Source: Eutreptiella sp. 'Long Island Sound 2002' | Taxonomy: Eukaryota; Euglenozoa; Euglenophyceae; Eutreptiales; Eutreptiaceae | Assembly (NCBI GenBank): GCA_964036045.1 | Contig: OZ038392.1 | Coordinates: forward strand, 23,772,090-23,836,089 | Direction of reading: 5' to 3' | DNA: 64,000 nt | Part shown: one piece after another, positions 8,400 through 54,583 of the stretch | Position numbering within the stretch: position 1 is the stretch's first letter | How the letters are laid out: every line of letters begins with the position of its first letter | Made by a program: the position numbers and the translations under genes | The notes under the pieces: generated by a model | Told to the model about the DNA's origin: nothing | The model's input: the letters and a program-made list of their open reading frames with translations, nothing else | Database searches by the model: none

Positions 8400-9060
8400 G
8401 TAGGTACCAAGCCGGGCGTCCTAGAAATAGCTCATGGGGCGAGTAGCCAGTCGCCGAACTCTCTTGGGAGTTCATCATCAAGGATATGACGGGGAGTAGT
8501 CTCACCCAGTCTCTGTTGCGTTCAGTTTTGCACCATATCTTTACATTCTCCTTGAGGACACGAATCTGTCGCTCACCTAGGGGGTTGCTTGTGTGCGAGT
8601 AGGGGAACCCCGTAGACGCCTGGACAGTGAGGGATCTCTGGACCCTCTTGTACCAGCCAGTCTCTGAGCGTACTCGTACGTCCTCATCGGAGTTGACCTC
8701 CTTGGACGCCCCATAGACACAAAACCATTCCTCAAGGAGTATCTTGATAGTCTCTCCTCCGGTAATGTGCTTGGTACATGGGAACACCCTGGTAAGCCTG
8801 GTCAACCCACGGGTCACCACAAGGGCAAAGCCGTAGCCCCCAAACTTCGGCATCTCCGTGCAGTCCACGTAGAGAACACTGTTAGCACAGTGGGTAATGG
8901 GCAGGGTCGAGTAGAGACCCCTGTCCCTGATATCCCCAGGTTTGCAGGACCTACACGGGCACTTGTCCACGATAGGCTGGAGGGTCTTCCGCAGTTGGTC
9001 ATCAGTCCACGTAGTGTGGAACCACTGCTTGAATAGCCTCAGGGTATGGTCAGCACCCAC
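8359..9060 (-). pseudogene. Gypsy integrase core (zinc CC half and DDE domain)
   Basis: The region has the second half of the integrase HHCC zinc site (CPCRSC, near 8930-8950), whose HH half is 19 kb away at 27.95-28.0 kb because LINE-A inserted between them. The catalytic core follows: first Asp in YVDCTEMP, second Asp in NSDEDVRV and Glu in NPLGERQIRV, with 35 residues between the last two if the second Asp of SDED is used. The enzyme would join element cDNA to host DNA. The gene is cut on its upstream side at 9060 by the target duplication of LINE-A, and a frameshift lies at its downstream side. Confidence 0.75.
9050..9060. repeat. Target-site duplication of LINE-A, left copy
   Basis: TCAGCACCCAC at 9050-9060 is repeated at 27941-27951. 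The gypsy integrase sequence is continuous when one copy is removed together with 9061-27940, which fixes the LINE-A borders. Confidence 0.85.
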
Positions 9061-9062
9061 GA

Positions 9063-9653
9063 TGGGCTGCACAGGCCTTCCCTCACCAGTCACACCCTCG
9101 AGCCGGCCCCGACCACGGCCGAATCCCCAGGGCGCACCCCCCCCAACGGGGACAGCCCAATGCCGGGCGCCGCCCAGGTGCGAAGAAGCGCAAGGCCCCC
9201 GCACAGGCCAAACCCGCACCCGAGCCAAAAGCCAGGCCGAAGACCTGGACCGAAGAGGAAGACGCCGCCCCCTATCCCGAGTACGCCATCAGCACCCAGG
9301 TGCAGCTGCCCTTCGAGTACGCCACGGCCGCGGGCCCCTCCAAGTGGGTATGGGCCGCAAGTGAGGTCAAGCACCGGTACAGCGTCACCGGGGACCACCA
9401 GGGGTCCAAGATCCACGTCAAGTGGGACCCAGCCACCCCCAGCGACAAGAAGGTGGGGCGCACCATCGAACTCTGGCGAGACCGAAACGGTCGTGAGATG
9501 GTCCCCATGCAGCTATGCACCCCCGACACGGAGCACCTCAGGGGCATCGAGTACACGGGCGAAGTCCACAGTGCATGGCCGGTACCCCAGCCCCAGAAGC
9601 GGAACCGCAAGGCACCCGCAGCCCAGGGCGTCATCGACCTCCTTGACGCCTGA
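9063..9653 (+). CDS. LINE-A ORF1, C-terminal fragment
   Basis: An open frame of 196 residues runs from the insertion border to TGA 9651-9653. LINE ORF1 proteins usually bind element RNA and form the particle. A basic nuclear-localisation-like run (PGAKKRKAPAQ) is followed by an acidic linker. The last 120 residues match the C-terminus of LINE-G ORF1 (1163-1286): PFEYATA aligns with the LINE-G block, IHVKWDP with IRVIWHR, and GIEYTGEV with GTKYTGEL. The W-x-A and V-K-W-D pattern is vaguely like small beta-barrel (Tudor-type) domains, which is only a guess. The next frame (ORF2) continues in phase after the stop. Confidence 0.65.
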   Translation, partial: WAAQAFPHQSHPRAGPDHGRIPRAHPPQRGQPNAGRRPGAKKRKAPAQAKPAPEPKARPKTWTEEEDAAPYPEYAISTQVQLPFEYATAAGPSKWVWAASEVKHRYSVTGDHQGSKIHVKWDPATPSDKKVGRTIELWRDRNGREMVPMQLCTPDTEHLRGIEYTGEVHSAWPVPQPQKRNRKAPAAQGVIDLLDA

Positions 9654-9700
9654 CGGGGCCCGGGCCCGACACGGCCCGCCTCCACAACTACTGGTCCCCG
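9651..9700 (+). promoter_or_regulatory. Candidate UGA readthrough signal, LINE-A
   Basis: ORF1 ends in TGA followed by CGG GGC, and ORF2 continues in the same frame without an ATG until 9795. UGA-CGG is a known type II readthrough context of plant viruses. CGGGG at 9654-9658 can pair with CCCCG at 9696-9700. The same CCTGACGGGGC string is present at the equivalent place in LINE-G. Confidence 0.55.
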
Positions 9701-9752
9701 GAAGCCGGGGCCTGCGGAAGCCCACGCCCGCATCAACATCCTCAACGAGCCC

Positions 9753-12248
9753 GTGGTCACCTACGACCCGACCAAGGCCGCCACACTGCAAGCCATGCCC
9801 GGGCCACACCCCCAAGGCGCAGACCTCCTGGGGTTCCTGGAGCAAGCCCTCCGCAGAGCGGACCAGCCCGAACCGGCACCGATCCTGGACACGGAGGGGA
9901 ACAAATATCACGCCCACTGGCAACGGGGGGTGCCCCTCTACCCCGACCTCGGAGTGGATGGTCGCCTCGAAACGTACGAGTGCGTGGGGCCCGGATGGCA
10001 GCTAAACGTGCTACTCACGCACGTCCCATTCGGAAAGAAGACCAAGGACTTCCTGGACACCCTGAGCCTGGCGTACCGCCGCCTCTCCCTCCTGGCACCC
10101 ACCATCATCATAGGCGACCTAATCGCCGCCCCCACGGACAACGACCGCACCGGCCCACCCACAGCCACGGACATAGCTGTCCGGGACGCCATGCACCAAC
10201 TGGGCCTCACCGACCTCACGGCAGGACTCACCGGCACACCCTCCCATTACCCCCACCAAGACGGCACCCACCCCTCCCGCATCGACACGTGCTACCGGGA
10301 CCCAACCACGGTGCGTGTCCACGAGGCAACCTACGGGGACCTCCTGCCCACAGGCACGGGCAACCGACCCCTCTACATCGACCTCATCATCCCCAACCTA
10401 CCCCCACCCGCGGCCACCCTGCCAGACGACACCCTCCCTGCAACACTGCAGTTCCCGGCCGAGAACGACCACGGCGCCTGGCACAGGTGTAATAGAGCCC
10501 TACACGCCATCCTGCGCCGCCCTGATGCGCCAACACTCAGCACCGCCATGCGCCGGGCGGCACAAGCAAGCGGCATGGAGCGCGACACCAGCCACACGGG
10601 AGCACCACCGGACCTCACCCTCCAACAGCTCGTCCATGACATCTGGACCACGAAAGAGGAACTCGCCACCCTGCTAAGCGCCAGCACATCGGAGGCACGA
10701 GACCGGGACGCCCAGCTCCGTGCGCTCCTCACCTCCCGCCGCCACCAACTCCAGGAATGGCACGCCCACCGCATAGCGGCCGCAGCCCAGGAACGCGAAA
10801 GATACGACAGAAACGACACGCCGTACAAGTCCCTGCGGTACGTCAGCCGCATCCTGGAAGACACGGGGCGCCGTACCATCCACGCGGTGCGCACCCCCGA
10901 GGGGGGCCTCACAAACGACCCCGACGCCGTCCTCCAGGCAGTCCTGGACAGCTTCCAGGCACGACACGGGGACGCTCTCCCCGAGCTCGACCCCCACACC
11001 AGAAGCACCATCCGCGAACATGTGCCCAGGTTCTTCAACCTGGAACAGCGACGCGCCATCGGACACGACCCCTTCATCATCTCAGAACTGCGACGCGCCC
11101 TAGACCGCCTGAAGAAGAGGGTCGTGCCCGGCGTCGACGGTTCACCGGCCGAAGCGTACCAACGCCTCACCCTGCCCGTCAGACGCCGCCTGGCAGCCCG
11201 CCTGTGGGACGTCGTCACGGGCGCCACGCCCGTCCCCCCTGAGTGGGCCAACCTGGTCCACCCCCTCTACAAGAAGGGGGAATGGGCGCAGCCGGGGAAC
11301 TGGCGGCCCATAGTCTGCACCACCACCGAAGTCAAGCTGGTGTGGGTGCTCATCCTGGGCCCCATCGCGCCGGCGGTCTTCGCCCACGTGCCCGCCAGCA
11401 TGTGGGGAGCCATGGCCGGCAGGTCCCCCCACGAGGCCATCTTCCTCCAGGACACCGCACTGGACATGAACCCCTACGAGATGATTGTCGCCTCCCTCGA
11501 TCTCCAAGGCGCGTTCCCCCATGCCGCACACCGGCTCCTCACGGAGGTATGGGATGCCATGAGCCTCCCATTCCTATCCTTCATGACCAGGTACATGCAG
11601 ACCCGGCTCTACGCCGTCATCACAGTCGCAGGCCTCACCCCCTGGACCGGCACAGACAGCGGGGTCCCCCAGGGTAGCGCCGAGGGCCCCTTCCTCTACC
11701 TCCTCGTCACCCTACCAGTGGCATTCGAGCTAGCACAGGTATACCCGGGGTACGCCCCATACCCGCTACGGTCCCCCCTCATCAACTTCGCGGACGACAA
11801 CCTCCTAACTACCGCCACCCGCCACCGCGACCCTGAGAATGCAGGGCTACCAACGACCAGCGAGCAAGCGTCCGCCATTCTCCAACTCACCACAACCTAC
11901 CTGGACGCCCACCAGCTCCTACTGAACCCCCGCAAATCGGTCGGGCTAGCCGACACCAGGACCCCCACCACCCACATCCGGAAAGGCGAACCTCTACACC
12001 TGGAGGACACCACAGTCCACCTGGGAGTCACACAGGCCACGCGGCACCACTACATCACACTCCCAAGCAAGTTGAAAGGGCGCCTCGCCCGGCTACCCCA
12101 AATTGCCAGGGGGGACCTCCTGTCTACGCAGGGCCTGGCATACTTCATGGAAGCGGTGCTCAACGCGGCCATCGGGTACCAAGCCCTGCACCTCCCGCAC
12201 CCCGAAGACGCCCTACGCCACGCTCGACAGCAAGTGACGAAGGCTTAG
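9753..12248 (+). CDS. LINE-A ORF2, endonuclease and reverse transcriptase part
   Basis: This is the first part of a LINE polyprotein that nicks target DNA and reverse-transcribes element RNA at the nick. The APE-type endonuclease comes first: a Glu-containing FLEQALR segment, TYECVGPGWQLNVLLTHVPF, PSRIDTCYRD and TGNRPLYIDLI. The usual GDxN motif is changed to GDLIAAPT, suggesting a damaged nuclease. The RT carries WRPIVCTTTEVKLVW, SLDLQGAF, GVPQGSAEGPFLYLL and the catalytic FADD (LINFADDNLLT). A TAG at 12246-12248 replaces the Trp found in LINE-G, and the frame then continues to 12362, where LINE-B is inserted. The open frame really begins at 9654, directly after the ORF1 stop, and has no ATG until 9795. 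Confidence 0.85.
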   Translation: MVTYDPTKAATLQAMPGPHPQGADLLGFLEQALRRADQPEPAPILDTEGNKYHAHWQRGVPLYPDLGVDGRLETYECVGPGWQLNVLLTHVPFGKKTKDFLDTLSLAYRRLSLLAPTIIIGDLIAAPTDNDRTGPPTATDIAVRDAMHQLGLTDLTAGLTGTPSHYPHQDGTHPSRIDTCYRDPTTVRVHEATYGDLLPTGTGNRPLYIDLIIPNLPPPAATLPDDTLPATLQFPAENDHGAWHRCNRALHAILRRPDAPTLSTAMRRAAQASGMERDTSHTGAPPDLTLQQLVHDIWTTKEELATLLSASTSEARDRDAQLRALLTSRRHQLQEWHAHRIAAAAQERERYDRNDTPYKSLRYVSRILEDTGRRTIHAVRTPEGGLTNDPDAVLQAVLDSFQARHGDALPELDPHTRSTIREHVPRFFNLEQRRAIGHDPFIISELRRALDRLKKRVVPGVDGSPAEAYQRLTLPVRRRLAARLWDVVTGATPVPPEWANLVHPLYKKGEWAQPGNWRPIVCTTTEVKLVWVLILGPIAPAVFAHVPASMWGAMAGRSPHEAIFLQDTALDMNPYEMIVASLDLQGAFPHAAHRLLTEVWDAMSLPFLSFMTRYMQTRLYAVITVAGLTPWTGTDSGVPQGSAEGPFLYLLVTLPVAFELAQVYPGYAPYPLRSPLINFADDNLLTTATRHRDPENAGLPTTSEQASAILQLTTTYLDAHQLLLNPRKSVGLADTRTPTTHIRKGEPLHLEDTTVHLGVTQATRHHYITLPSKLKGRLARLPQIARGDLLSTQGLAYFMEAVLNAAIGYQALHLPHPEDALRHARQQVTKA

Positions 12249-12358
12249 GCGCAACACGGAGGCTGGCCCACGTCTTTCCCCAAGGAGGCCATGATGGCCC
12301 ACTGGCGCTACTATGGAGACAATACAGGCGCCCTGGTCGACATGGCCTATGCCAAACA

Positions 12359-12362
12359 CGCA
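12359..12362. repeat. Possible 4-bp target duplication of LINE-B, left copy
   Basis: CGCA at 12359-12362 recurs at 18642-18645, on either side of LINE-B. It is too short to be certain, and removing the insert leaves a 1-nt phase difference in ORF2 of LINE-A. Confidence 0.4.
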
Positions 12363-12545
12363 GGTAGGGTAGGTAGGTAGGTATCTTCGGGAGCTCGGGA
12401 TGCCTCCTTTGACATTGCAGGAAGAAGGTCTTACCAAGGGGACGTCCTGTCCCTCCCACTGCCCTATGTCAGGTGCCTCTTGAGCCGCCCCCGCATGTGC
12501 TTGGGAGGGCATTGTCGCGGCCACCCGGTGCATGTGTCCCAGGTG

Positions 12546-13270: not shown

Positions 13271-13421
13271 AACAGGGGCGCGCGTACACTGCAGGCACAG
13301 GCACGGGCAGCTGTTGCGGCGGTGCAATAGCGTTGTGTCCTCTGGCGTGTGTCGTCGGTGCTGTGGCGGCGGTCGCGCCCCAGGGGTGCGGCTCGCGTGT
13401 CCTGATGTACACGGGTATGGG

Positions 13422-18175: not shown

Positions 18176-18609
18176 GTCCCCTGGCTCTGCGCGTATGGTG
18201 GTCCTGGCATGGTGTGGACGTGTGTGGGCGGTGGTGGCTGACTGGGCTGCAGGGGGTGGGTGCTGCGGTACGGTGGTGGTGGTGGGCGCTGGCGATGGCG
18301 GTGTTGTTGGTGTGCCCCGGGGGTCTGGGCGTGGGGTGGTGCGGTGTGGCCGGACCCGGGCCTTGGTCGGGGCGTCGCGCCCTGCTGGTGGGCGCGTTGG
18401 CGGGCCCCCTGACCTGTCTTGGTCTTCTTGGCCTGGTGGGTGTCGGGGGCGGGTGAACCCCCCTGTCCCTGTGGGGGCGACGGGGAGCGGGCGTGCCAGC
18501 GGTGTGCCTCTTGGAGGCTCGTCTTGAGGCCTCTGACGTAGGTTTCCTGGTTTGTGAGGCCCATCCGCGTGGCGGTGGCCTCGTCGGGGGCGGCCAGGTG
18601 GGCGTCCCG

Positions 18610-18641
18610 AAAAGACGCCCAGCCCTCCGGGGGCGTCTTTT
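18610..18641. repeat. 10-bp inverted repeat at the 5' junction of LINE-B
   Basis: AAAAGACGCC at 18610-18619 and GGCGTCTTTT at 18632-18641 are perfect inverted copies, and the outer arm ends exactly at the LINE-B/LINE-A junction. This looks like a fold-back or template jump at the end of reverse transcription. Confidence 0.65.
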
Positions 18642-18646
18642 CGCAC

Positions 18647-21226
18647 CTCCTACACAGGGTGACACACAACCACCAGCCCGAGGTTCGCGAAGCGGCAGCC
18701 ATACGCATCAAAGAAGCGCAAATGGCCCGCAACACCTGCCCCCGTTGGATACTGGCGCAACACGGCATCTCCACCTCCGTGGGCACTGGCATCTGGGCCC
18801 AGCTGCAACTCCTCCTACCGCACCACACGCACGCCATCCTGACAAACCACCACTGCGATCAACAGGGGCCCCTCGTGGCCACGCACACCGACATCCACCG
18901 ACACCCGGCAGGCGAGGTGGACACCCTGCGCCTCGTGGGGGCCACCATCACCATAGTGTATATCACCCCAACACAGATGAAGATCATGGCTCAGTGCGAC
19001 GCCCGCCACGCTCCGTTCCTTTCCGACCCACAATGGCCAGCACGCCTCGTCTTCCAAGCGTACCTCCGCGCATGCGCTACGAAGGCAGGGCGCGACATGC
19101 TGGGGCCCAAGGACATCGACACGGCGTACAAGGCCTTCCAGCGCCAGCACCCCCGGCCCCACCCGAGCGAGCACGAGACCCCCAACAACGGCAGCACAAC
19201 GCAGGAGGAGCCCACCCCGTCAGCCGAAGGCTGGGCACCACCCACCATCCTGCTACTAGCACCAAACGGCCACAAACACGCTACCCGCACTGTCCAGCGA
19301 CACCATGCCCCCTGGTCCATCCCCAAACACAACGCACCGGTGACCGATGTACCACCAGTCAGACACAGTGACCAGGGCATACCACGCACGTGCTGGCACT
19401 GCGGCCCGGCAGCCCTCGACACTCCGTGGCCCCTGCTATACCTAATCTCCACCCACTACCACACCCCCACCGCAGCCGCCACCGCCGACCAGCAGGCATG
19501 GCTCTCCCCCTGGTTTGACACGGTACCCCCAGACCACCTGGCGCACGTAGCCTGGACCCGAACACCCACGGCGACATGGACGTTCACCAACGAGCGGGCA
19601 GACCCAGAAAGCGTGGCCATAGAGTACGACCGCTGCGACCCACACCACGCGGGACCTCAGGAGGCACCCATACGCCCCCTACAGCACAAATGCCCCACCC
19701 TCCGCGGCGACAAAGACGACAAGGAGCGGCGACAGACCATCACGTGCCAGAAGCTCCACCCCAATACGGGATACCTCTTCCACCTGATGTACGCGTACAT
19801 CACCCAGGGGCGCCCAGACAGGGGCCTCCTCCGCCTCACCCCACGAGCCCAGGCCATCATCACCCAGGGGATAGGCGTCTATGCAGCGCCGCTACTGCAA
19901 CCCACGCAAATCACCACCAGAACCGACCAAGGGAACCCCGTCTACGTCTATCATCCCACAGCAATTGCCCGCCTACCAATACCCAGCGACACCAACATCA
20001 TCTACTTCGGTGACGCATCCGGCACCCAGCAACGCACCCCCACGGTCGGTTGTGCCTCCGTGCGCATCACCCGGCGCGCAGACGGCCTCCACGTGGAACG
20101 GCACACCGGGGCCAATATCTTTGGGGCGTCCTCCCACGGCGAACTGCGCACCCTGGCAGACGCCGTTACCGCCACACCACCACCCGCAACGATCCGGCCC
20201 CGCAACATCTGGGTGGTCGTGGACGCCACGGTCGACATCCACCTCACCAGGCGCCTCGCGGACCTCCCCCTCCGCAAGGCATCCGAGTCCCGCCTCACCA
20301 CACAAGCGTTGGGGCTATGGATGGCCTTCAGGGGCATGCACCCCCAGGACGCCCTAAACATCGTCAAACAGGAGTCACACCGCTACGCATACGGCAACGG
20401 ACGCGCAGACACGCAGGCCAAACACCAGAGCACCAGCCACACCCCAGGGCTCGAACACGTACGACTGGACACCCCACACCACAGCCACCTGCAGCACGTG
20501 CCTCCGATACCCTCGGCCACACAGCCCCCCCAATGGATACCCGAGGACACGCCGTACACAGATCGAGACAAGCAGTACCACTACCCCACACCCATCCAGC
20601 AGCTGGCCACCACACTGGGCCACCCAGCGAACACCGAACTCCTCCGACGCCTCGAAGACTCCGTCCACACCCCCCTCTACTACTCCGTCCTGCGCCCGGA
20701 TAGCCTCCCAGCACACCTACAAAAACCCCGACTCCAACTCACCCTCGAACAGCTTCCCCTCCTCACCCGATACCACCGATGGTACGCGCGCCGCTCGATC
20801 CACGTCCCCGCAGAATACACCAAATGCATCTGTGGCCACGCGGAAGAAGAAACCTGGGACTACTTCAAGGTGTGCCCCCTGTACAGAGGACTGGACGTCC
20901 TGACAGACTGGAACCCAACCCACACCATCGCACAGCACGCCGGATGGCTGACGCAGTCCCCGGCGACCCAGCAACTCACCACTGTCCTCATGCAGACGGA
21001 GGTACTCGAGGCGGTCCGCAGGGGACTCGTCCCCACTGCCGTCTACACGTTGCTACGCACCCACGCGGATGACCCCCAGGCCATGGCGGCGCACATGCAA
21101 CGGACGGCCGTTGCCAAGACAGCGGAGCAGCTCACATACCGCACCCACAAATACCTGCAGCATGCAGCAACCCTGCCCCAAACAGACCAAGCCCACCTCC
21201 GCAACCTCCTGTTCTACCAACCATGA
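18647..21226 (+). CDS. LINE-A ORF2, connection, RNase H and zinc-cluster part
   Basis: This is the rest of the LINE-A polyprotein after the LINE-B insertion; it picks up the alignment to LINE-G ORF2 at LLHRVTHNH. It includes a region of about 440 residues after the RT with no recognised domain, then RNase H with the four acidic positions in place: Asp in YFGDASGTQ, Glu in SSHGELRTLAD, Asp in WVVVDATVD and Asp in NGRADTQAK. RNase H removes RNA from the cDNA hybrid. A C-terminal zinc-like cluster (KCICGHAEEETWDYFKVCP) follows. The stop TGA 21224-21226 overlaps the ATG of ORF3 at 21223 (ATGA), which suggests coupled translation. There is no stop within this part. Confidence 0.85.
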   Translation, partial: LLHRVTHNHQPEVREAAAIRIKEAQMARNTCPRWILAQHGISTSVGTGIWAQLQLLLPHHTHAILTNHHCDQQGPLVATHTDIHRHPAGEVDTLRLVGATITIVYITPTQMKIMAQCDARHAPFLSDPQWPARLVFQAYLRACATKAGRDMLGPKDIDTAYKAFQRQHPRPHPSEHETPNNGSTTQEEPTPSAEGWAPPTILLLAPNGHKHATRTVQRHHAPWSIPKHNAPVTDVPPVRHSDQGIPRTCWHCGPAALDTPWPLLYLISTHYHTPTAAATADQQAWLSPWFDTVPPDHLAHVAWTRTPTATWTFTNERADPESVAIEYDRCDPHHAGPQEAPIRPLQHKCPTLRGDKDDKERRQTITCQKLHPNTGYLFHLMYAYITQGRPDRGLLRLTPRAQAIITQGIGVYAAPLLQPTQITTRTDQGNPVYVYHPTAIARLPIPSDTNIIYFGDASGTQQRTPTVGCASVRITRRADGLHVERHTGANIFGASSHGELRTLADAVTATPPPATIRPRNIWVVVDATVDIHLTRRLADLPLRKASESRLTTQALGLWMAFRGMHPQDALNIVKQESHRYAYGNGRADTQAKHQSTSHTPGLEHVRLDTPHHSHLQHVPPIPSATQPPQWIPEDTPYTDRDKQYHYPTPIQQLATTLGHPANTELLRRLEDSVHTPLYYSVLRPDSLPAHLQKPRLQLTLEQLPLLTRYHRWYARRSIHVPAEYTKCICGHAEEETWDYFKVCPLYRGLDVLTDWNPTHTIAQHAGWLTQSPATQQLTTVLMQTEVLEAVRRGLVPTAVYTLLRTHADDPQAMAAHMQRTAVAKTAEQLTYRTHKYLQHAATLPQTDQAHLRNLLFYQP

Positions 21227-34391: not shown

Positions 34392-34842
34392 AATGAAAAT
34401 AGGTGGTCTGTACGAACTGGTTCACGTTCTTCAAATTGGTGATAGGTCGACGGCCTCCCTCAGGATGTGCCTCGTCTGACGCTTTGTCCACTGCGAACAT
34501 ACTTGCACAACACTTAATGTCTTTTCGCTCGACGCGTTCCATGCAACCCTGTTGCACTGCATCCAACACGTGTTTTACCAATTCAGGGTCGGTTACCTCT
34601 GCGTGGGAAGAACGAGGACGGAAGTCGTCGGTTGGCCGATCCGGATCAAAACCGTCAACCCAATCAAGCTGCAGCCCATTGCGAATCACTGACGCCGCGT
34701 ATGTGTCCTTCAACGCTTCCCATTCATGCAATTGTGCACGACAGCGCAAATAGAGTGGCATGTGGGGATGGATCGGCGGTGGCACGCACACGGCTGGCGC
34801 CAATAAATCCTCTACAGTCAAGCTACTGCTGTGGTCGTTCAT
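34330..34842 (-). CDS. DIRS RT N-terminal part
   Basis: It begins at ATG 34842, overlapping the end of the gag frame by about 20 nt. The segment HAEVTDPELVKHVLDAVQQG and AHPEGGRRPITNLKNVNQFV (fingers of DIRS-type RT with the RPITNLKNVN motif) leads into the main RT frame at about 34385. After that point this frame is off register. The two frames make one protein, either through a programmed shift or because the copy carries an indel. Confidence 0.65.
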   Translation of the reverse strand: MNDHSSSLTVEDLLAPAVCVPPPIHPHMPLYLRCRAQLHEWEALKDTYAASVIRNGLQLDWVDGFDPDRPTDDFRPRSSHAEVTDPELVKHVLDAVQQGCMERVERKDIKCCASMFAVDKASDEAHPEGGRRPITNLKNVNQFVQTTYFHFGHSMGHFTVLETRSVCLQN

Positions 34843-37560: not shown

Positions 37561-37819
37561 GCATCTACAGGACCTCTTCTTCTGCCTTTTGACACATGCC
37601 GACGACCGACGACGAGAACCAGCCAAGGTATGACACACCCCACCCCACCAACCACACACCGCGAGCACACGCACGCGCACGCACGACAGCCACACCGAGC
37701 GCGACCCCCCCCCCCCCCCACGCCACCCACACCAACACGAAGGACCACACAGCGCACACACACACACCAGGACCAAGGGGAAGGGCACCCGGAAGACACA
37801 CCCACCGCAACACCACACC

Positions 37820-44000: not shown

Positions 44001-45240
44001 CCACCACCCACCCAAGCAGCACAAAACACCACAACAACACCACCACACCCTCACCACCAGCGACACCACCGCCAGCACCCTCCGCCAGGAATGGCGAGGA
44101 GAAGGCCCAACAGCGCGGACCCACCCAACGTCCCCGGCACCCTCACCATCGGACCGTCACCACCGGCGCCGACCCCCAACACACCACCGTCACCAACGCC
44201 ACCGACCCCGGACGCAAAAATCACACAGCCCGCACACACGGCACCAGCCAGAGCAACGCCGACACCACTCCCGGCCAACTCACACGAACACCACCGGAAG
44301 CACCACCGTCGACCGAACACCACGGCGACCCCAGGGTACGAGTCCCCCCCACCATCTGCACGGCCAGCGACGCCGTCACCGGCACCAACCGGAACACCGA
44401 CAACGACAGCCTCACCAACAACCGACACCCCCCTACCGCTGCCACCCACCAGTCACGCCACCCGCCGTCAAAGCCACCCACCAATGCCGCACCCCGAACC
44501 ACACTTACACCCGAAACCGGCACCAGCACGCCCGGCCGAACCGTCAATGGCACCACCGCCATGGCACCGCCTACGCTCACCACCGCCACCACCACCCCAC
44601 GCGAGACCAGGAACCCCCGCCGTCGCCAACGGCCTCAACGAGCACCGACACCACCAGCACCACCACCGCCGGACAGGGACTACCCACAAACCAGGAACAT
44701 CTCCACCACCAACAACCAATACACCACCCGCGGCACCCCACCATCGCCGACACCACCACGGCACCCATCACACCTCCACCACCGGAGGCGACGTGGGCCA
44801 CACCACCCGTCAACTACAGCACCCTCGCCACCACCGCCACATCCGGCCCACGAACGTTACCGCCGACAACACCACATACGCCCATACGTCACCCACGCCA
44901 TGCTCACCGACCATCACCTCGTCATCAGAGACACCAACACCACCGGCGACGACGACAGCGACAACAGCTGACCCACCAGCTAACCACCATCGACCATAGC
45001 CCAGCACCAGCTTCATCTACTCTAACGCCCATACCACCCTCGCCAACAGCGCCGCCACCGACACAATCATCCACTCCGGCGCCCATACCACCCTCACCAC
45101 CAACATCACCAACACCACCACCCCCAAGGTCAGGGCCCGCGGGAAACAGAACGGCAGAGCGAGCACGCCACCACCCGCACGCGTCGCCCACCCTATCGTA
45201 CACCGCTCCGCAACACGCCCCCCCCCGCTTCCCCTGACAG
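41001..45240 (+). repeat. LINE-G CAC-rich region with diverged long repeats
   Basis: A 4.2-kb region of CCA/ACC-rich sequence. It contains diverged direct duplicates, for example 41491-41640 with 42958-43107 (offset 1467 bp) and 42305-42540 with about 43247-43480 (offset about 941 bp). The CCAGGAGTGGCG core of the satellite recurs at about 41499, 42513, 43451 and, altered, 42963 and 44084. Frames are open in all phases, so coding status cannot be judged. Confidence 0.6.
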
Positions 45241-45373
45241 GGCGTGCGCTCCAGCCCACTGCTGGGAAGACGACTTCGACATCCTCCCGGCCATCCGACA
45301 CCTACTGGCAGCCACGGCCCCGCGCCCACAAGCCCACCAGCAACCCACGGAACCGCAAGAGCCCGACCACCCC

Positions 45374-48300
45374 ATGCCACCACGCTCCATATCCCCTGCG
45401 TCCACCGCAGACCGGAACGCGGAACACCAGCGAGAGGAGCCCGACCCCGGCCGCGCCGCCACGCCCCCACCGCCCCCCCCCCCAAAGGACATCTACGCCA
45501 CGCTGGCCACCACCCTAGCCCCCATGGACGCCGAGCAGTACTACCAGTCCGTCCAACGAGACCTCCCTGAGGACCACGCGACCCTCCAGGGGTGGAAGCA
45601 GGAGAAAAGGTACGACAACGAGTGGGGCACAGAGGAAGACCTTCTCTGGGACGACACCTGGAAAGGCAACGCGGACACCTTCCTGGAGGCAGCAGCCGAA
45701 ACCTACCCCCGCCCGCCCGGGGACACCAGACACGGCCTCCACGCCCTCCTAGCGTTCCACAGCTGGAAACACCGCCACACCGTCACCCTCCACCCCCTCG
45801 ACCACAATCCGCACCGATGGACACCTGAAGACGATGCCACAGCCACCATCACCGTACAGCAAAGCCACATCACCTGGGACGATCCGGCACCCCACCCCCC
45901 CGCCTCCCCCACCCTCCCAGATGTCTTCGCCGCCATCAGTGCAGAGCTCCAGGAGGCCAAAGCCCCCCACCAACTGGACGAAGACATGCCCCAGGCACCA
46001 TCACCATCAACCACACAAGACCAACCCCACACAGAGCCCCTCACCCACCCCATCACCACAATGGAGCTCCCCCCACAACACCGCACCACCCCAGACCGAA
46101 ACGGGTTTCGAGACCTGCCGCGGGAATGGGCGGTCCACAACGGCACACTCCGATGGGACGAAATCACACCGGGCCTCCAGGCCATCCGCCTCCACTCAAT
46201 CGCAGAGCCCACCACCACCTGGGCACTACCGACGGACCGCCACCACCTCCTCCTCACCGTCCGTGCCACGATCACACCCACGGAAGGAGACCCCGTAACA
46301 GCAGCCGCCGCCCACGCCGTCCACATACCCCCGCAAGCATCGTCGGCACCTATGACGGTGCATCCAGGCCCCACCCCTTGGCAGGCCATCGTCGTCACCT
46401 ACCCCGCCCCCAATGACCACACACATACCTGGCAGCAACGATGGGAGGACATCCGAGGGGACCTCCTCCAAGAACACCTAGGGCTCACACGCACCCACCA
46501 CACCCTACAACCGATACGAGGAGTAGGCCAAGCGTCACACGGCATACACGCCCCGGGAGTATGGGCCTACGCCACACCCATAAACCCACAAGCAGCGGAG
46601 GACATCAAGACCGCCCTATCCATCCAGCAAGCCCTTACCCAAACCCCGCACCGCAACACCCAACGAGGCTACACAATTTGGTGGGCGTACCAAGACCATG
46701 ACACCCTCACCCCCCAACCGGGGGCCCCCCCTCTAGACACCAACACCACCGCCCTCCTCCAAGCCGCAACAGCGGCAGCCACACAGGTAGGGGCCCCGGA
46801 AACCTGGGGCCCACAATACCTGGTCGAAACCAAAGTGGCGCCCCACGCGAAGGGCCAAGACAAGCCCCCAACACCGAAGCCGCTCCACCCCCCGCTCAAG
46901 CTAGACCCGACGGAGCACACCCCCCAGGATGAATGGGCGACCCACTACATCATCCCCCACACCACCACCCGCAAGAACGACGCCGCCAAGATCACCGTCA
47001 CCCGCCACCTCCCCCACACCACACAGGTGTATGAGCTGACGGCCCCCAACGTCCTCGTCACTCGTCGCCGACACGACGAGCGATACACCATACAGGCGGA
47101 AGAGGCCGCCGCGACCACCCTGTACACATGGGCAACACGGGGGGACCTCCCACACCCCACCCTCCACCACGCCCCCTCCTGGCCCACCCCCTTCCACACA
47201 GCGGACCGCCCCAACAAGAAGCCCAAACACACGGGTGTGCACACCCACGCCCAGGAGGCCCAGCACCGACACGAAGCGAAGCGCAAGGCCCGCACCCTCC
47301 ACGACGACCACACCATCCCCCGCATCGGCGCCCCCCCCGCCAGGGTATCAGATACCACCCACAACCGCACGATCACAGGCATCACCACGGACTGCCTGAA
47401 CCCAGCGGCATCGCGGGCAGACGCCGTATGGATCAGCGAAGGGCGCTCCCACACACGGGCGGTGGCGCGCCTCCACAACATCCAACCCCACAAACTCCAG
47501 CGCGCCGTTGGACCCTTCGCCGTACACGTCACCCCGTACGGCATCGACCACCCCCGGTGTGAGCACCATGACCCGCCCTGCTCCACCCCATGCACCTCGC
47601 CCCTCCGCCAACCGCTGCCGGCCCCCACCATCACGGGCAACATGTACCTGGGCACCGTACCGGGAGACCCGGGCATATACATCCTGCCCAACAGGTCCAG
47701 GGAACACGCCATCCCCCTCCACTGTGTGGAATCCCTCGCCCTGGGACCACCCCCACCAAAGCACCAACACCAACACATCCCGGGGGACAAACGGACACAG
47801 GCCCCAGACGGGGGAAAAAAGGCCCACCAACGCGCCCTGGCCCACATCACCCTCCACCCCGCAGCCCACCTACCAAAGGACTTCGGCACGGAGCGCCACA
47901 TCGTCCTGGAGGGCCAAGCCCACCACATCATCACCGCCGCCCTGTACACCCTCGCCGCCCACGAACGCCACTGGGACCCCACAACCATCCCAGCAATGCC
48001 CCCACCGCCCCAAGGCCCCAACGATCCCGTCACCCCCTTCCACATCGATCAACTCCTAAGCCGCAAGGCCCCCCCACCCCTCCACCCCTCCAGGATACCA
48101 CTAGCCATTGCATCGTGGGACACCCTGGACACCCCCCCCCAACAACCCGCCATCCACATCCTCAAAGCGGACACCCAATGGTGGGTCCTCCACTGGGCAC
48201 ACGGAGTCCTCATGGCGGCCCAGGCCTATACCCCGGAAATGGACCCGGAAGACCCCCCACGGGGCCAGCAGCGACTCCTCCAAGCCACCACCCTCACAGG

Positions 48301-49234
48301 CTGCGAAGGCGCCCCCTGGGAAGCCCTCCACACAGCACTCTACTGGGCTCAAGGCTCCCCCAAAGGCCCGGACACACCGGAACCCACAGAGGCCTGGGTC
48401 AGGCAGGCCAAGGCCATGAGGAACTACCACCTACACCACCCCTTCGACGACAGCCCTGCCGCACTGCCATGGCCAACAGATCCCCCGGAGACCGTACGCA
48501 AGCTCGCCGACATCGTACGCAGCCACGCGAAAGCGAAAATGCAAACACCGGCAGAACCCCCACTGAGGGATCCAGACCAGCAAGCAACGCACCCCTTCTT
48601 CCAACCCCATGCCCCCCCAGCCCCGCCACCTCCAGTCCCACCCAAGCGAACGAGACGACGAAAGGGCGCACCCGCCCCCAGCCAAGCCGGAAAAGCAGCA
48701 ACCTCCCGACCCCCCGCATCCCACCCGACCCACCCGACGAACCCAGACCAAGCATCCTCGTCATCCTCCCTCCCACCACTACCACCGCCCCACCCGGACC
48801 AGGCATCCTCATCATCCTCCCTCCCGCCACCAGCACAGGCCCCGCCCGAAGCGTACCCAGGGTTCGAAAAAGGTGCGAAGGTCCAACAGCCCTTCCGCAA
48901 CGACCACACAGGCGACTGGATCTGGTGTGAGGGCACGATCCAGTACCGCCTCAAGGGACAAGGGGACAACGGGGGGCCACAGATCCGGGTAATCTGGCAC
49001 CGCCAAAAAGAGCTAGACCAGGGCAACAGCGCCCCGGACAAACCACTCGGCGACACCCTGGAACTCACCAGCGCCCACCCCATCCGGCTCCGCACCGAAG
49101 AGAACAAGGCCCACACAGGCACCAAATACACTGGGGAGCTCCCCCCGGAGTGGAGCCAAGGCCTCCCCCCGCCGCGCCTACCCAAACGCCCACAAACCGG
49201 CAAAAAGTCCCCAACCCCCAGTCCCCCTCCCTGA
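45374..49234 (+). CDS. LINE-G ORF1
   Basis: An uninterrupted frame of 1286 residues, very long for a LINE ORF1 (usually 300-500). No RRM, zinc knuckle or esterase domain is recognised. The first 1050 residues are Pro/His/Thr rich but contain several complex stretches, such as ITRIGAPPARVSDTTHN-type sequence near residue 660 and the Cys/His patch HPRCEHHDPPCSTPC near 735. A basic run (PPKRTRRRKGAPAP) near residue 1095 could be a nuclear localisation signal. Residues 1163-1286 match LINE-A ORF1 (GAKVQQPF, IRVIWHR, GTKYTGELP). ATG 45374 is the first good start; the upstream sequence is open but low in complexity. It ends at TGA 49232-49234 followed by CGG, and ORF2 continues in the same frame, so a giant ORF1-ORF2 fusion may be made by readthrough. 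Confidence 0.7.
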   Translation: MPPRSISPASTADRNAEHQREEPDPGRAATPPPPPPPKDIYATLATTLAPMDAEQYYQSVQRDLPEDHATLQGWKQEKRYDNEWGTEEDLLWDDTWKGNADTFLEAAAETYPRPPGDTRHGLHALLAFHSWKHRHTVTLHPLDHNPHRWTPEDDATATITVQQSHITWDDPAPHPPASPTLPDVFAAISAELQEAKAPHQLDEDMPQAPSPSTTQDQPHTEPLTHPITTMELPPQHRTTPDRNGFRDLPREWAVHNGTLRWDEITPGLQAIRLHSIAEPTTTWALPTDRHHLLLTVRATITPTEGDPVTAAAAHAVHIPPQASSAPMTVHPGPTPWQAIVVTYPAPNDHTHTWQQRWEDIRGDLLQEHLGLTRTHHTLQPIRGVGQASHGIHAPGVWAYATPINPQAAEDIKTALSIQQALTQTPHRNTQRGYTIWWAYQDHDTLTPQPGAPPLDTNTTALLQAATAAATQVGAPETWGPQYLVETKVAPHAKGQDKPPTPKPLHPPLKLDPTEHTPQDEWATHYIIPHTTTRKNDAAKITVTRHLPHTTQVYELTAPNVLVTRRRHDERYTIQAEEAAATTLYTWATRGDLPHPTLHHAPSWPTPFHTADRPNKKPKHTGVHTHAQEAQHRHEAKRKARTLHDDHTIPRIGAPPARVSDTTHNRTITGITTDCLNPAASRADAVWISEGRSHTRAVARLHNIQPHKLQRAVGPFAVHVTPYGIDHPRCEHHDPPCSTPCTSPLRQPLPAPTITGNMYLGTVPGDPGIYILPNRSREHAIPLHCVESLALGPPPPKHQHQHIPGDKRTQAPDGGKKAHQRALAHITLHPAAHLPKDFGTERHIVLEGQAHHIITAALYTLAAHERHWDPTTIPAMPPPPQGPNDPVTPFHIDQLLSRKAPPPLHPSRIPLAIASWDTLDTPPQQPAIHILKADTQWWVLHWAHGVLMAAQAYTPEMDPEDPPRGQQRLLQATTLTGCEGAPWEALHTALYWAQGSPKGPDTPEPTEAWVRQAKAMRNYHLHHPFDDSPAALPWPTDPPETVRKLADIVRSHAKAKMQTPAEPPLRDPDQQATHPFFQPHAPPAPPPPVPPKRTRRRKGAPAPSQAGKAATSRPPASHPTHPTNPDQASSSSSLPPLPPPHPDQASSSSSLPPPAQAPPEAYPGFEKGAKVQQPFRNDHTGDWIWCEGTIQYRLKGQGDNGGPQIRVIWHRQKELDQGNSAPDKPLGDTLELTSAHPIRLRTEENKAHTGTKYTGELPPEWSQGLPPPRLPKRPQTGKKSPTPSPPP

Positions 49235-49275
49235 CGGGGCAAGGGCCGAGGGCACAAGCCTCCACAGCCCCGGCC
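49232..49275 (+). promoter_or_regulatory. Candidate UGA readthrough signal, LINE-G
   Basis: CCTGACGGGGC at 49230-49240 is identical to 9649-9659 of LINE-A. The next 45 codons stay in the ORF1 frame without ATG. CGGGGC at 49235-49240 can pair with GCCCCG at 49267-49272. UGA-CGG with a downstream stem is the arrangement of type II viral readthrough sites. Confidence 0.6.
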
Positions 49276-49369
49276 CGCCCCCACCGAGGCCACCGTCAAC
49301 CTCCTCGACCTCAACCACCCGGCCGTCACATACTCCAAGGACGCCACAACCGCCCTCCAAGAGCTCCCG

Positions 49370-52300
49370 ATGGCACAGGGGCCGGGGTGGGTCCCCCACC
49401 TCCTCACCTTCCAGGAACAAGGCCTACAGCGCGACGACCCCCCGGAAACCACCCCCATGTATACCCCGGACCAGAAAGCGTACAAATGCTACTGGCACAA
49501 GGGGACCCCCCTATACGCCCAAACCGGCATCCACGTCCACCTCGTCCACCACCTCAGCATCCCAGGGAGGCTAGGTGTCTATGAGGTCGTCGGGGACGGA
49601 TGGCAACTCAACGTCATCAACACCCACGTCCCCTTCGGCGAAGCCACGGAACCCTTCCTCCAGGACCTGGCCGAGGCGTACCGCCAAATGGCCATGCTCG
49701 CCCCCACAGTCATCATCGGCGACATGAACGCCGCCCCCACCCCAGCGGACCGAGGAGGACAGGCCACACCCCAGGACCAAGCAGTCCGCGACACCATCGA
49801 AATGCTGGGGCTCGTGGACCTAACAGCCAGCCTCGAAGGCCAACCATCCCACTTCCCCCACCAAACGGATGCCGCCCCATCCCGCATCGACGTATGCTAT
49901 GGCGACCCCACCACCATCATCCGAGCGGAGGCCCGATATGGACCCCTCCCGCTGGGACCCACAGGCCATAGCCCCCTGCACATCCGCCTCACCATCCCCA
50001 ACCCTCCCCCCAGCCCCCCAGAAGATGCGGACCAAGGCCTACCACCCCCCCTGAAGATGCCCCCGCTGCATGACAAGCACGCCTGGTCCCAATATCACAG
50101 GGCCATAGACCGCGCCCGGCGCATCCAACCAGACCCCACCGACCTACTCACAGCCATGCGCACGGCCGCCGTCGCCTGCGGCTTCCAGCAACACCCCCAC
50201 ACAGACGACGACCAACCACCCACGGCCCTGGGGGACATGCTCCATGACCTCTGGCATGCGAAGCAACAACTGGCGACCCTCCTCCACACCGACACCCCCC
50301 AAACCCGCCACCAGATACACCACTGCAGGACACACATAGCCCAAATCAGGGCGGACCTGCAGCGGTGGCACATCCACAGGCAACAGCGCATCGCCCAGGA
50401 ACACGAACGGTATGCGCAACACGAACTCCCCTACAAGGCCATCCGCCACCTCAACGACGCCATGACCGATACCGGCCACCGCACCATCACCACGGTCCGG
50501 CAGGAGGACGGCTCCCTCACCAACGACCCAGCCACAGTGCTCCAAGCCACCCAAGACAGCTTCCTCCGGCAACACACCCCCACCCAAGACACACTGGACC
50601 CGGACACCCAGGCCAAAATCGACCGCCTCCCTCGGGTCTTCAACCACGCCCAGAGGAGGCACCTGGAAAAACGCCCCTTCACCATCCACGAAGTCCGGAA
50701 GGCCATCCACAGTCTCCGGCAACACAAAACCCCAGGCTACGACGGCCTCCCTGCAGAGGCATACTACCACCTCCCCGCCCACCTCCTCCGCGTCCTCGCC
50801 CACCGCCTCTGGGACATCGTCACGGGGCGGACCCCCCTGCCACCAGACTGGGCAAACGTTGTCCGCCCCCTCTACAAAAAAGGGGACTGGGCGAACCCGG
50901 ACAACTGGCGCCCCATAGTCTGTGCGGTCACGGAGGTCAAAATCGTCTGGACCATCCTCCTGCGCCGCATCCGCCCCCACCTGGACCCCCACATACCAGC
51001 GAGCCTCTGGGGGGCCATCCCAGGCCGCTCCCCACACGAGGCCATCTTCCTCCAGGACACCATCGCGGACATGGACCCGGTGGACCTCATCATCGCCTCC
51101 CTCGACGTCAAGGGAGCCTTCTCGAACACCCCCTGGCTCCTTCTAGAAGCGGTGTGGAAACGCCTAGGCCTCCCCTTCTACAACTTCACCTCCGACTACA
51201 TCCGCACCCGCAAATACACGGTCCGCACAGGAGCAGGCCTCACCCCCTTCCTGGAGCCAGGCAGCGGGGTCCCCCAAGGGGGAGCAGAGGGCCCCTTCCT
51301 GTACCTTCTAGTGACGCTCCCCCTGGCCCTCGCAATCGAGCAGGATTACCCGGCCTACGCACCCTACCCCCTCCTCTCCCCCCTGGTCGGCTTCGCGGAC
51401 GACACCAACCTCACCGTCGCGCACACCCCACACGACCCCCATGCCCCGGACCCCGGACCAACGGTCACCCAACAGGCCAACGACTTACTGGACGTGACCG
51501 TCTCCTACCTCTCCCACAACAACCTCATCGTCCACCCCACAAAGTCAGTGGCCATGATCAAGGGGTCTGCCACACCTCCCACCCTGGGGCCACAAGGGCC
51601 CCCCATGCAAGTCGTGACGACCACCACCCACCTGGGGGTAGTCCAGGCCGCCAACCCTGAGGACGCCACCCTCCCTCCCAAGTTGCAGTCACACCTCGCC
51701 CATCTCCCCAGATATGCGTCCCCGACCGCCAAGGCCCTCTCCCTGTCCCACCAGAGCCTGGCGTACTACCTCACCGGGGTCTTGAACGCCTCCATAGGCT
51801 TCCAAGCACTCCACCTAACACACCCCACCACCGCCCTCCAGCCGGCCACACGCGCCGTGACCAAGGCATGGGCAGCACACGGGGGCTGGCCCACCTCCAT
51901 ACCCACCCGCGCCATCCGAGCGGCATGGCCCCACTATGGAGACGCCATAGGGGACGAGGTGAAAGCGGCCTATACCAGACACACCGCCCTCCTCCTTCAC
52001 CGCATGACCCACAACCACTCACCGGAGGTCCGCGAGGTCACCGCCATCCGCCTCCAAGCCGCACAACGGGCCCGCAACACATGCCCGCGTTGGGTACTCC
52101 ACCAGACGGGCATGCCCACCAACATGAACACCCGCCTGTGGAACCACCTGCAGCTTCTGCTCCCATCCCCACACCACGCCATACTCACCAACCACACGTG
52201 CCCGGAGAAAGGGCCACTAGCGGTCCTCTGCGGGGACCTCCACCACCACCCCAAGGGCACCATCCACACCATAGACCTTGTCGGGGCCTCCATCACCGTA

Positions 52301-54583
52301 GTATACGTCACCCTCGCCCAAATGCGGGTCCTGCACCACAGCGGGGCACACCACACCCCCTTTCTACAGCTTCCCGAATGGCCACAATACCGCCTCTTCC
52401 ACCACTACCTCACACAGACGGCACGAACAGCGGGACACACTCTACCGGGCAGCAAAGACATGCGCAAAGCCTACCGAGAATTCACAAGACAACACCCGCG
52501 ACCCATCCCAGAGACACCGCCCTACGCACCCACCGGATCGAAACACGAACCCGTCCCCCCAGTAACGGGCCCAGTCCCACCACTAACCCTACTACTAGCC
52601 CCGAATGAAGCCAAACCCACGCAGACCACCGTCATCCACCACGGGGCAAAATGGCGCATACCGAAACACCACATGACCGCCCGAGACCTACCAAAGGTCC
52701 CCCAAGATTCCCAGAGCATGCCACGCACATGTTGGGCCTGTGACCCCGAGGCACCAACCGCACCATGGCCCGTGCTACACCTCATAGCACGCCACCACAC
52801 CCACCCCACGACCCACCTACCACCACAGGCCTACGCATGGATAGCCCCATGGTTCCACCGCACCGACACTAACCCCACGGTAGCATGGAACCCCGACCAC
52901 GCGCCCAAATGGCTCTTCACCACTACACCCACATGCCCCCGCCCCGACCCGGCAGGGGTCGCCATCCGTTACAGCATGTACGAGCCAGGCAGAACGAGCA
53001 AACACGAGCACCCCTACTATCCACTCCACCACTCCTGCCACACACCGGAGCACCGAACACAAACCCTCACATGCCACGACCTAAACCCCGACACAGCCTA
53101 CATCCTCCACTACATCTACTCCTACCTCACACAAGGACAGCCGGAGCAGGGACTCATAGCCCTGTCCCCCCAAGCAAAGCACATCATCTCCAAAGGAATA
53201 GGGGTGTACGCCACCCCCATCCTACAGCCCACAACCCCAGTAGCCCACCTCGCCACGGGCCTTGCCATATACGCCTACCTGCCCATGAACCCATGCCGCC
53301 TCCCACAACCATCACCGGCGGACCGGCTCTTCTTCACCGACGCCTCAGGCGAATCCGCCCTCACGCCCATCACCGGGGGGGCCACCCTGCAACTAACCCA
53401 CACCGGGGAACACTACCACATGGACCACCACACGGGCCACACCACCTATGGGGCCTCTTCCCACGGGGAGCTAGGGGCCATGGCCGACGCCATCACCGAG
53501 GTCGCGGCCCACCTACCCGCCCACTCCCCGCACATCGTCCGGGTCTGGTTCGTGGTAGACGCCACTGTCGACACGCACCTGCTCCTCCGCATAGCAAGGC
53601 AACCACTTCACAAAGCAACCGCGACGAGCCTCGGCACCCAGGCACTGCTACTCTGGAAAGCCCTACGCAGCCTTCCCCCCTACGTCCAACTCCACATCGT
53701 GAAACAGGAGTCCCACAGGCACCAATACGGAAATGGTAAGGTCGACAACCAGGCAGTACACCAGCGCACAACACACCTACCAGCCCTCCAGATCCCTGAC
53801 CTCGGCCGCAACCACACACACCTCCAACACGTGCCCCCTGTACCCGAGCCCCATCAGACCCCGGACTGGGTACCAGAGGACGCCCCCTATTCCTCCCACG
53901 ACAGAGCGTACCACTACCCCAACCCCGTCCAACATCTCGCCCGAGTGCTCGGCGACGCAGACAGCCGGGCCCACATCCAGGAGCTCCAGGACAGACTGCA
54001 AATCCCCCTCTACCACTCAGCGCTCCGCCCAGCAAACGTCCCAGCCCACCTCCAGAAACGACGCATCCAGCTCCTCAGGGAGCAACTGCCTTTCCTCACC
54101 AGGGTCGCCAGATGGCTCGCCCGCAAGCACATCCACGTCCCCGACGAACACACCCGTTGCCCATGCGACCAAACCACCCCGGAGGACTGGGAACACTTCA
54201 AGAAATGCCCCCTCCATACAGACAGGGACACCCTAGTGGGCTGGTCCCCGGCGGAAACCCTGCGGCAACACGAAGGATGGCCAGCCCACAGCCACGCACA
54301 CCAGGCCACCGAACACCTCTTCCGGGACCCCCTGATCAAAGAAGCCACCATGAGAGGGGCAGTGACACAGGCCCTGCACCGACACCTCACCAAACACACG
54401 GAAAGCCCCATGGAAGCAGCAGCACACCTCCAGCTAGAAGCGGTCCGCAGAGCAGCAGCCCAAATGGTACACCGCAAACACCTCCTGCTAACACACGCGG
54501 AACAACTCACCGACCCCACCGCCAGGGAACACATGCAGCGTCTCATCCATTACCATGCCGTGCATGACCCAGACGTCCACTAA
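49370..54583 (+). CDS. LINE-G ORF2: endonuclease, RT, RNase H, zinc cluster
   Basis: A 1737-residue frame from the first ATG. APE-type endonuclease (residues 1-210): TFQEQGL (catalytic Glu), GDMNAAPTPADRGG (near 117), PSRIDVCYGD (near 170) and TGHSPLHIRL (near 199). RT: WRPIVCAVTEVKIVW, IIASLDVKGAFSN, GVPQGGAEGPFLYLL and GFADDTNLT (near 675). A region of about 450 residues with no recognised domain follows. RNase H: FFTDASGE (1322), SSHGELGAM (1366), FVVDATVD (1396) and NGKVDNQAV (1457). Zinc-like cluster: CPCDQTTPEDWEHFKKC (near 1595). The protein nicks DNA and carries out target-primed reverse transcription. Homology to LINE-A starts about 25 codons before this ATG, with a conserved NLLDLN-type segment that could be endonuclease motif I. 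The true N-terminus is therefore probably made by readthrough from ORF1. No internal stop or shift is present. Confidence 0.9.
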   Translation: MAQGPGWVPHLLTFQEQGLQRDDPPETTPMYTPDQKAYKCYWHKGTPLYAQTGIHVHLVHHLSIPGRLGVYEVVGDGWQLNVINTHVPFGEATEPFLQDLAEAYRQMAMLAPTVIIGDMNAAPTPADRGGQATPQDQAVRDTIEMLGLVDLTASLEGQPSHFPHQTDAAPSRIDVCYGDPTTIIRAEARYGPLPLGPTGHSPLHIRLTIPNPPPSPPEDADQGLPPPLKMPPLHDKHAWSQYHRAIDRARRIQPDPTDLLTAMRTAAVACGFQQHPHTDDDQPPTALGDMLHDLWHAKQQLATLLHTDTPQTRHQIHHCRTHIAQIRADLQRWHIHRQQRIAQEHERYAQHELPYKAIRHLNDAMTDTGHRTITTVRQEDGSLTNDPATVLQATQDSFLRQHTPTQDTLDPDTQAKIDRLPRVFNHAQRRHLEKRPFTIHEVRKAIHSLRQHKTPGYDGLPAEAYYHLPAHLLRVLAHRLWDIVTGRTPLPPDWANVVRPLYKKGDWANPDNWRPIVCAVTEVKIVWTILLRRIRPHLDPHIPASLWGAIPGRSPHEAIFLQDTIADMDPVDLIIASLDVKGAFSNTPWLLLEAVWKRLGLPFYNFTSDYIRTRKYTVRTGAGLTPFLEPGSGVPQGGAEGPFLYLLVTLPLALAIEQDYPAYAPYPLLSPLVGFADDTNLTVAHTPHDPHAPDPGPTVTQQANDLLDVTVSYLSHNNLIVHPTKSVAMIKGSATPPTLGPQGPPMQVVTTTTHLGVVQAANPEDATLPPKLQSHLAHLPRYASPTAKALSLSHQSLAYYLTGVLNASIGFQALHLTHPTTALQPATRAVTKAWAAHGGWPTSIPTRAIRAAWPHYGDAIGDEVKAAYTRHTALLLHRMTHNHSPEVREVTAIRLQAAQRARNTCPRWVLHQTGMPTNMNTRLWNHLQLLLPSPHHAILTNHTCPEKGPLAVLCGDLHHHPKGTIHTIDLVGASITVVYVTLAQMRVLHHSGAHHTPFLQLPEWPQYRLFHHYLTQTARTAGHTLPGSKDMRKAYREFTRQHPRPIPETPPYAPTGSKHEPVPPVTGPVPPLTLLLAPNEAKPTQTTVIHHGAKWRIPKHHMTARDLPKVPQDSQSMPRTCWACDPEAPTAPWPVLHLIARHHTHPTTHLPPQAYAWIAPWFHRTDTNPTVAWNPDHAPKWLFTTTPTCPRPDPAGVAIRYSMYEPGRTSKHEHPYYPLHHSCHTPEHRTQTLTCHDLNPDTAYILHYIYSYLTQGQPEQGLIALSPQAKHIISKGIGVYATPILQPTTPVAHLATGLAIYAYLPMNPCRLPQPSPADRLFFTDASGESALTPITGGATLQLTHTGEHYHMDHHTGHTTYGASSHGELGAMADAITEVAAHLPAHSPHIVRVWFVVDATVDTHLLLRIARQPLHKATATSLGTQALLLWKALRSLPPYVQLHIVKQESHRHQYGNGKVDNQAVHQRTTHLPALQIPDLGRNHTHLQHVPPVPEPHQTPDWVPEDAPYSSHDRAYHYPNPVQHLARVLGDADSRAHIQELQDRLQIPLYHSALRPANVPAHLQKRRIQLLREQLPFLTRVARWLARKHIHVPDEHTRCPCDQTTPEDWEHFKKCPLHTDRDTLVGWSPAETLRQHEGWPAHSHAHQATEHLFRDPLIKEATMRGAVTQALHRHLTKHTESPMEAAAHLQLEAVRRAAAQMVHRKHLLLTHAEQLTDPTAREHMQRLIHYHAVHDPDVH

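Follow-up and report, generated by a model that had tools for sequence, protein, structure and literature searches.

The window, by which we mean the whole stretch of 64,000 nt that was analysed, contains two large non-LTR elements, LINE-G and LINE-A (Table 1). LINE-A is a single element split by other DNA, and its layout is that of LINE-G. In a comparison with Pfam, ORF2 of LINE-G matches RVT_1 (1.2e-15) and Exo_endo_phos (6.7e-05, just below the cut-off of that family). With an alignment of LINE-G and two A-family copies as the query, the top PDB match is LINE-1 ORF2p (8.1e-16). Judged from these matches, LINE-G is a non-LTR retrotransposon with a reverse transcriptase (RT) and an AP-type endonuclease in ORF2; the RNase H-like region farther on in ORF2 was recognised by eye only.

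Table 1. Features of LINE-A and LINE-G, with positions in the window
Feature	Position	Strand	Remarks
LINE-A ORF1, 3′ remnant	9033..9650	+	
LINE-A ORF1 stop UGA, then CGG	9651..9653	+	UGA-CGG-GGC in frame in 30/30 A-family copies
LINE-A ORF2, first part	9654..12363	+	in frame with ORF1
LINE-A ORF2, second part	18644..21217	+	resumes after the interruption
LINE-G ORF1	45026..49231	+	1402 codons open; first ATG is codon 117; same frame as ORF2
LINE-G ORF1 stop UGA, then CGG	49232..49234	+	present in 19/19 G copies that hold the junction
LINE-G ORF2	49235..54583	+	1782 codons + TAA (coding to 54580): endonuclease, reverse transcriptase, RNase H-like region
Predicted RNA hairpin, LINE-G	49236..49281	+	inner stem GGGCCG/CGGCCC from 8 nt after UGA
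Asn codon 27 of LINE-G ORF2, candidate endonuclease motif I	49313..49315	+	upstream of first ATG
First ATG of LINE-G ORF2	49370..49372	+	codon 46

A fuller copy of the A family, L064, has an ORF1 frame that is open for 1,804 codons and leads through UGA-CGG-GGC into ORF2. Since the ORF1 sequences of LINE-G and L064 can be aligned throughout the frame (34–37% identity), ORF1 looks like a genuine coding frame. A [YW]TG[ED] block ∼30 codons upstream of the stop is common to ORF1 of G, A and the F4 copies described below. LINE-G ORF1 also carries a Cys/His cluster, CEHHDPPCSTPC, at 47558-47593, with the counterpart CTHCNPRCALPC in ORF1 of L064; this may be a zinc knuckle.

The first-pass annotation of this DNA had proposed that a UGA-CGG joins ORF1 and ORF2 in one frame, which we confirmed for both LINE-G and LINE-A. 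It had also drawn attention to an identical 11-mer at the two junctions, CCTGACGGGGC. This string is indeed exact at 49230-49240 and 9649-9659, and at no other place in the window; the matches to it with at most one mismatch number four in the window against 3.88 expected, which is the chance level. The codon alignment of LINE-G with L064 contains 24 identical runs of at least 11 bases in 6,993 aligned bases, with CCTGACGGGGC as one of them, so we rejected the identity as proof. As the 11-mer is unexceptional by itself, the case rests on the copies and families compared below.

The absence of an early ORF2 ATG was borne out as well. The first AUG in any frame lies 135 nt past the stop in G and 141 nt past it in A (codon 48, position 9795, in the latter), and alignment confirms that protein similarity starts upstream of it. 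As to the suggestion that endonuclease motif I precedes this ATG, an LN motif, whose Asn we take to be the metal-binding Asn of motif I, stands at codon 27 (G) or 31 (A) of ORF2, upstream of the ATG in both; the Asn is not invariant. It is kept in six of eight aligned copies (Lys in L093 and L095), in six of seven F4 copies and in the other A-type copies, while P29, Y33 and Q42 of G, all before the ATG, are invariant across the eight. An AlphaFold model of the G/A endonuclease region (pLDDT 36.5) was too poor to place the motif. No stop codon was found in the stretch before the ATG in the nine copies tested. The first-pass annotation had also suggested looking for purifying selection here. Variant counts favour coding in G, where variants common to at least three copies are synonymous in two cases and non-synonymous in none, against 7 synonymous and 32 non-synonymous singletons (counted in the LINE-G of the window and 20 copies selected through the junction string, with variants in exactly two copies omitted). 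Shared variants after the stop show no sign of purifying selection in F3 (7 synonymous, 8 not) or F4 (2 and 5).

To survey the junctions we used genomic copies that had not been picked by the junction string; the 20 G copies (of 30 loci) that had been chosen in that way are not counted here. Endonuclease matches were scored for 150 of 5,279 candidates for A and 150 of 5,648 for G. We fetched 30 A rows, the LINE-A of the window included, and all 30 have UGA-CGG-GGC in frame; of the 20 G rows fetched, 19 hold the junction, all with UGA-CGG (copy L082 ends at the junction and was excluded). Four extra rows were taken for their unusually long open frames. Three of these keep UGA (in L129 and L130 an indel shifts the ORF2 frame), and in the fourth, the A-family copy L128, UGG replaces UGA, so that ORF1 and ORF2 run on in a single frame over the short sequence that was read. 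The copies fetched by endonuclease match are close relatives and thus show little beyond the fact that active lineages carry UGA.

More distant copies were reached with an RT pattern, which occurs at 2,832 places (one in the reversed control). Among the 100 places listed we sampled 40, picked for differing strings and all on one contig (C1), and read short stretches ∼2 kb upstream; 23 hold a junction, and the 17 without one were left out. The 23 comprise four A-like copies with UGA-CGG, seven copies of the family F4, all with CAA-UGA-CUA-CUA, and seven of the family F3, all with UGA-CAA-UUA. The others are L096 (UGA-CAA-CUA, frame broken), L097 (UGA-CUC) and L092 (UGA-CAG, frameshifted farther on), the triplets of the last two being non-canonical, and the near-identical pair L094 and L115, 167 kb apart, which have UUA at the junction and a shifted frame. 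UGA is therefore present in 21 of these 23 junctions; in 19 of the 23 its context is one of the published leaky ones. Duplicates among the copies (L091/L109, L094/L115) mean that there are fewer independent events than copies. By our count the lineages are three: A together with G, F4, and F3. The kinship of F3 to A and G is judged from the RT pattern and a single weak match, that of L096 to L064 (E 4.9e-05).

Taken together, the 76 junctions, 53 of them from close A or G copies, comprise 73 with UGA, two with UUA and one with UGG; the base after the stop is C in all 73 UGA junctions. The first-pass annotation had counted other stops, out-of-frame spacing and an ATG directly after the stop as findings that would speak against its reading. 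As to the first, neither UAA nor UAG occurs among the 76, although three junctions have the sense codons just given. ORF1 and ORF2 are in one frame in 71 of 76; the five exceptions (L094, L115, L096, L129 and L130) carry an indel 3′ of the stop, and each is a lone copy or one of a near-duplicate pair. No ATG follows the stop directly in A or G, but in six of the seven F3 copies one is found at codon 3.

The contexts can be compared with published readthrough classes. Type II readthrough is characterised in the passages of PMC3542737 that we draw on by CGG or CUA directly after UGA, in many cases accompanied by a structure ∼8 nt 3′, and the same passages state that the hexamer CARYYA stimulates readthrough of UGA too; context classes are also treated in part of PMC11166343. 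The first-pass annotation was thus right to call UGA-CGG a type II viral context. A and G (UGA-CGG) and F4 (UGA-CUA) have type II stop contexts, while F3, L092 and L097 do not. The CARYYA hexamer of type I is present in F3 (CAA-UUA, 7/7) and L096 (CAA-CUA), all eight junctions having UGA in place of the UAG of type I. The chance of meeting CGG, CUA or CARYYA, given each family's own codon usage, is ∼0.03 for F4 and ∼0.02 for F3; both families were inspected after the hypothesis had been fixed, but CARYYA was counted as a match only once it had been seen.

As in the type II viruses described (alphaviruses, tobraviruses, pecluviruses and furoviruses), UGA-CGG or UGA-CUA is followed by a same-frame enzyme region, the replicase in those viruses, and LINE-G shares with them a stem, here predicted, ∼8 nt 3′ of the stop. 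Unlike these viruses, the elements studied here are non-LTR retrotransposons of a protist, known from sequence alone, and structure is weak or absent outside G. F3 resembles the type I signal (UAG-CAR-YYA, described for tobamoviruses) in the CAA-UUA after the stop and differs from it in the stop, UGA instead of UAG. Gammaretroviral Gag-Pol, as described, offers a likeness in organisation, the structural protein coming first and the enzyme being made as a same-frame fusion; it differs in being retroviral and in using UAG with a compact pseudoknot.

For a type II signal, a stem-loop would be expected ∼6–12 nt 3′ of the stop. The hairpin predicted 3′ of the LINE-G stop has an MFE of −36.9 kcal/mol (80 nt) with z −3.59 against shuffles (z −2.47 with 100 nt). 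The same 11 pairs can be drawn in L064 (z −1.42) and L093 (z +0.15); the z-scores of the other sequences are −1.36 (LINE-A), 0.30 (F4), 1.6 (L097) and 1.7 (F3), so that structure 3′ of the stop is no better than chance in F3, F4 and L097. The stem arms are nearly identical between copies and give no covariation support; the variants among G copies, examined by eye, have the look of decay and not of compensation. To judge by the protein alignment, the 3′ arms may not be homologous. The hairpin, significant in G alone, was rejected as a shared feature.

We conclude, with a probability of roughly three in four, that the ORF1 stop of these elements is a programmed leaky UGA and that ORF2 is made by readthrough. 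The proposal of programmed readthrough is supported; in addition to what the first-pass annotation had noticed, distant families carry other published leaky contexts (CUA, CAA-UUA). Most ribosomes would halt at the UGA and release the ORF1 protein; a minority would insert an amino acid there and continue, yielding an ORF1-ORF2 fusion that could reach some 3,185 residues in the case of G. Such a fusion would supply endonuclease and reverse transcriptase at a low ratio to the ORF1 protein, comparable to Pol and Gag in gammaretroviruses. The signal would be UGA-CGG-GGC in A and G, UGA-CUA in F4 and UGA-CAA-UUA in F3, probably aided in G by the hairpin with its inner stem 8 nt downstream. Position, frame, conservation and context of the stop can be read directly from the DNA; that readthrough takes place, at some efficiency and with this fusion as its product, is what they make probable.

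Other routes to ORF2 have to be weighed. One is termination-reinitiation, in which translation would end at the UGA and begin anew from the following AUG; this mechanism has been proposed for LINE-1 and SART1 and is described for non-LTR elements in the part of PMC5972666 that treats their translation. F3, with UGA-CAA-UUA-AUG in six of seven copies, would suit such a restart, and two F4 copies have an ATG not far off (codon 15 in L091, codon 28 in L095). In A and G, however, the first AUG lies beyond the LN motif, and the F3 copy L106 has AGG in place of the AUG. LINE-1 and SART1 are two-ORF elements. Like the LINEs here, they have endonuclease and RT in ORF2; their ORF2, unlike that of the LINEs here, is described as a product of termination-reinitiation (PMC5972666, same part). 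The AUG of ORF2 in a LINE-1-type arrangement stands before the endonuclease domain, which is not so in A and G, whereas the F3 AUG does precede the LN motif. Reinitiation also gives no reason for the leaky contexts after UGA. We consider it unlikely for the elements as a whole and, because of the AUG at codon 3 in six of seven copies, possible for F3.

Initiation at a non-AUG codon soon after the stop, or internal entry, would account for ORF2 homology beginning well upstream of the first AUG, and near-cognate codons do occur before the LN motif in some copies (three ACG in the A-like L093, several including GTG in F3 copies). G has only two AAG there, though, and L064 none, and a non-AUG start provides no reason for a conserved UGA; we regard this route as very unlikely. 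For Zorro3 of Candida, the first ORF2 ATG matters according to the portion of PMC1965478 concerned with it, and this dependence makes Zorro3 an unlikely precedent for readthrough. A search for a 2A (NPGP) motif found none in G ORF1, G ORF2 or L064 ORF1.

Another possibility is that the UGA is intronic, a euglenid nonconventional intron joined via RNA structure being one example, or that editing removes it. The host makes this worth considering: it looks euglenozoan, and euglenid nonconventional introns have no consensus ends and form stable structures, as stated in the section of PMC6221363 that deals with them. The elements replicate via RNA, so splicing or editing of that RNA should give rise to DNA copies that lack the stop; the retrocopies instead retain it (UGA at 73 of 76 junctions, with no copy from which the region is cut out), which counts against splicing or editing. 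Of the endonuclease matches scored (150 for A, 150 for G), all five with a frame of more than 1,782 codons were read, shorter frames being uninformative on this point, and L128, with its UGG, is the only one of the five whose frame crosses the junction. The chance-level structure of F3, F4 and L097 likewise disagrees with an intron joined via RNA structure, and we hold this explanation to be highly improbable. Just as little credence is due to the idea that the stop is an ordinary one between two independent proteins, with the single frame and the context arising by chance and ORF2 made from another transcript, an account that the unexceptional 11-mer would allow but that conflicts with the single frame in 71 of 76 junctions, UGA-C in 73 of 73 UGA junctions and canonical contexts in three lineages.

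A general use of UGA as a sense codon was rejected. The genome (2.28 Gb), probably that of a euglenid, has 39 matches to Pfam Flagellar_rod (best 1.2e-105), none with an inner stop; this family, which we take to be euglenozoan, is absent from 14 control genomes. The open frames of the elements hold no other UGA, which is weak evidence as the frames were delimited by stops. Trypanosomatid ingi and L1Tc live in a euglenozoan host, as the LINEs here probably do, and share with them the order endonuclease-RT-RNase H; unlike the two-ORF LINEs described here, they are single-ORF elements.

If the readthrough reading is extended to the whole euglenozoan LINE clade, endonuclease and RT would be made exclusively as the C-terminal portion of a giant fusion through UGA readthrough, with swaps among CGG, CUA and CAA-UUA during evolution, a retrovirus-like Gag-Pol logic in non-LTR elements. 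We lean towards this wider view, with less confidence than for the stop codon itself. If it is true, LINEs would obtain through readthrough both a constant ORF1:ORF2 ratio and a fusion protein of very large size, and a single genome would contain numerous natural versions of a readthrough signal, which would allow a direct comparison of CGG, CUA and CAA-UUA. Translation tricks described for non-LTR elements in the relevant parts of PMC5972666 and PMC5009743 are frameshifting, termination-reinitiation and StopGo (2A). Searches of an open-access library gave no description of readthrough in non-LTR elements, which is not proof of absence. Readthrough and LINEs are each known already; it is for their combination that this library gave no description.

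Several further features were observed. Upstream of LINE-G ORF1 and in another frame, a further open frame (43273-45237) likewise terminates in CCTGACAGGGC, an ending that recurs in copies L066 and L067. Farther upstream of the LINE-G frames, at 37816-40346, lies an array of tandem repeats (periods 157 and 471 bp) that may belong to the 5′ region of LINE-G. The ∼6.3 kb that interrupt LINE-A ORF2 (12364-18643) have as their longest open frame one of 1547 aa on the minus strand (14006-18649), for which a Pfam search gave no match. Copies L061-L063 represent an additional RT family, ∼26% identical to G across the matched part, and carry a junction-like string by chance on the opposite strand. Overlapping frames on the minus strand at 31900-34421 match Phage_integrase (tyrosine recombinase) and RVT_1, which suggests a DIRS-like element, and a tandem repeat with a 65-bp unit in 13.7 copies occupies 26480-27372.
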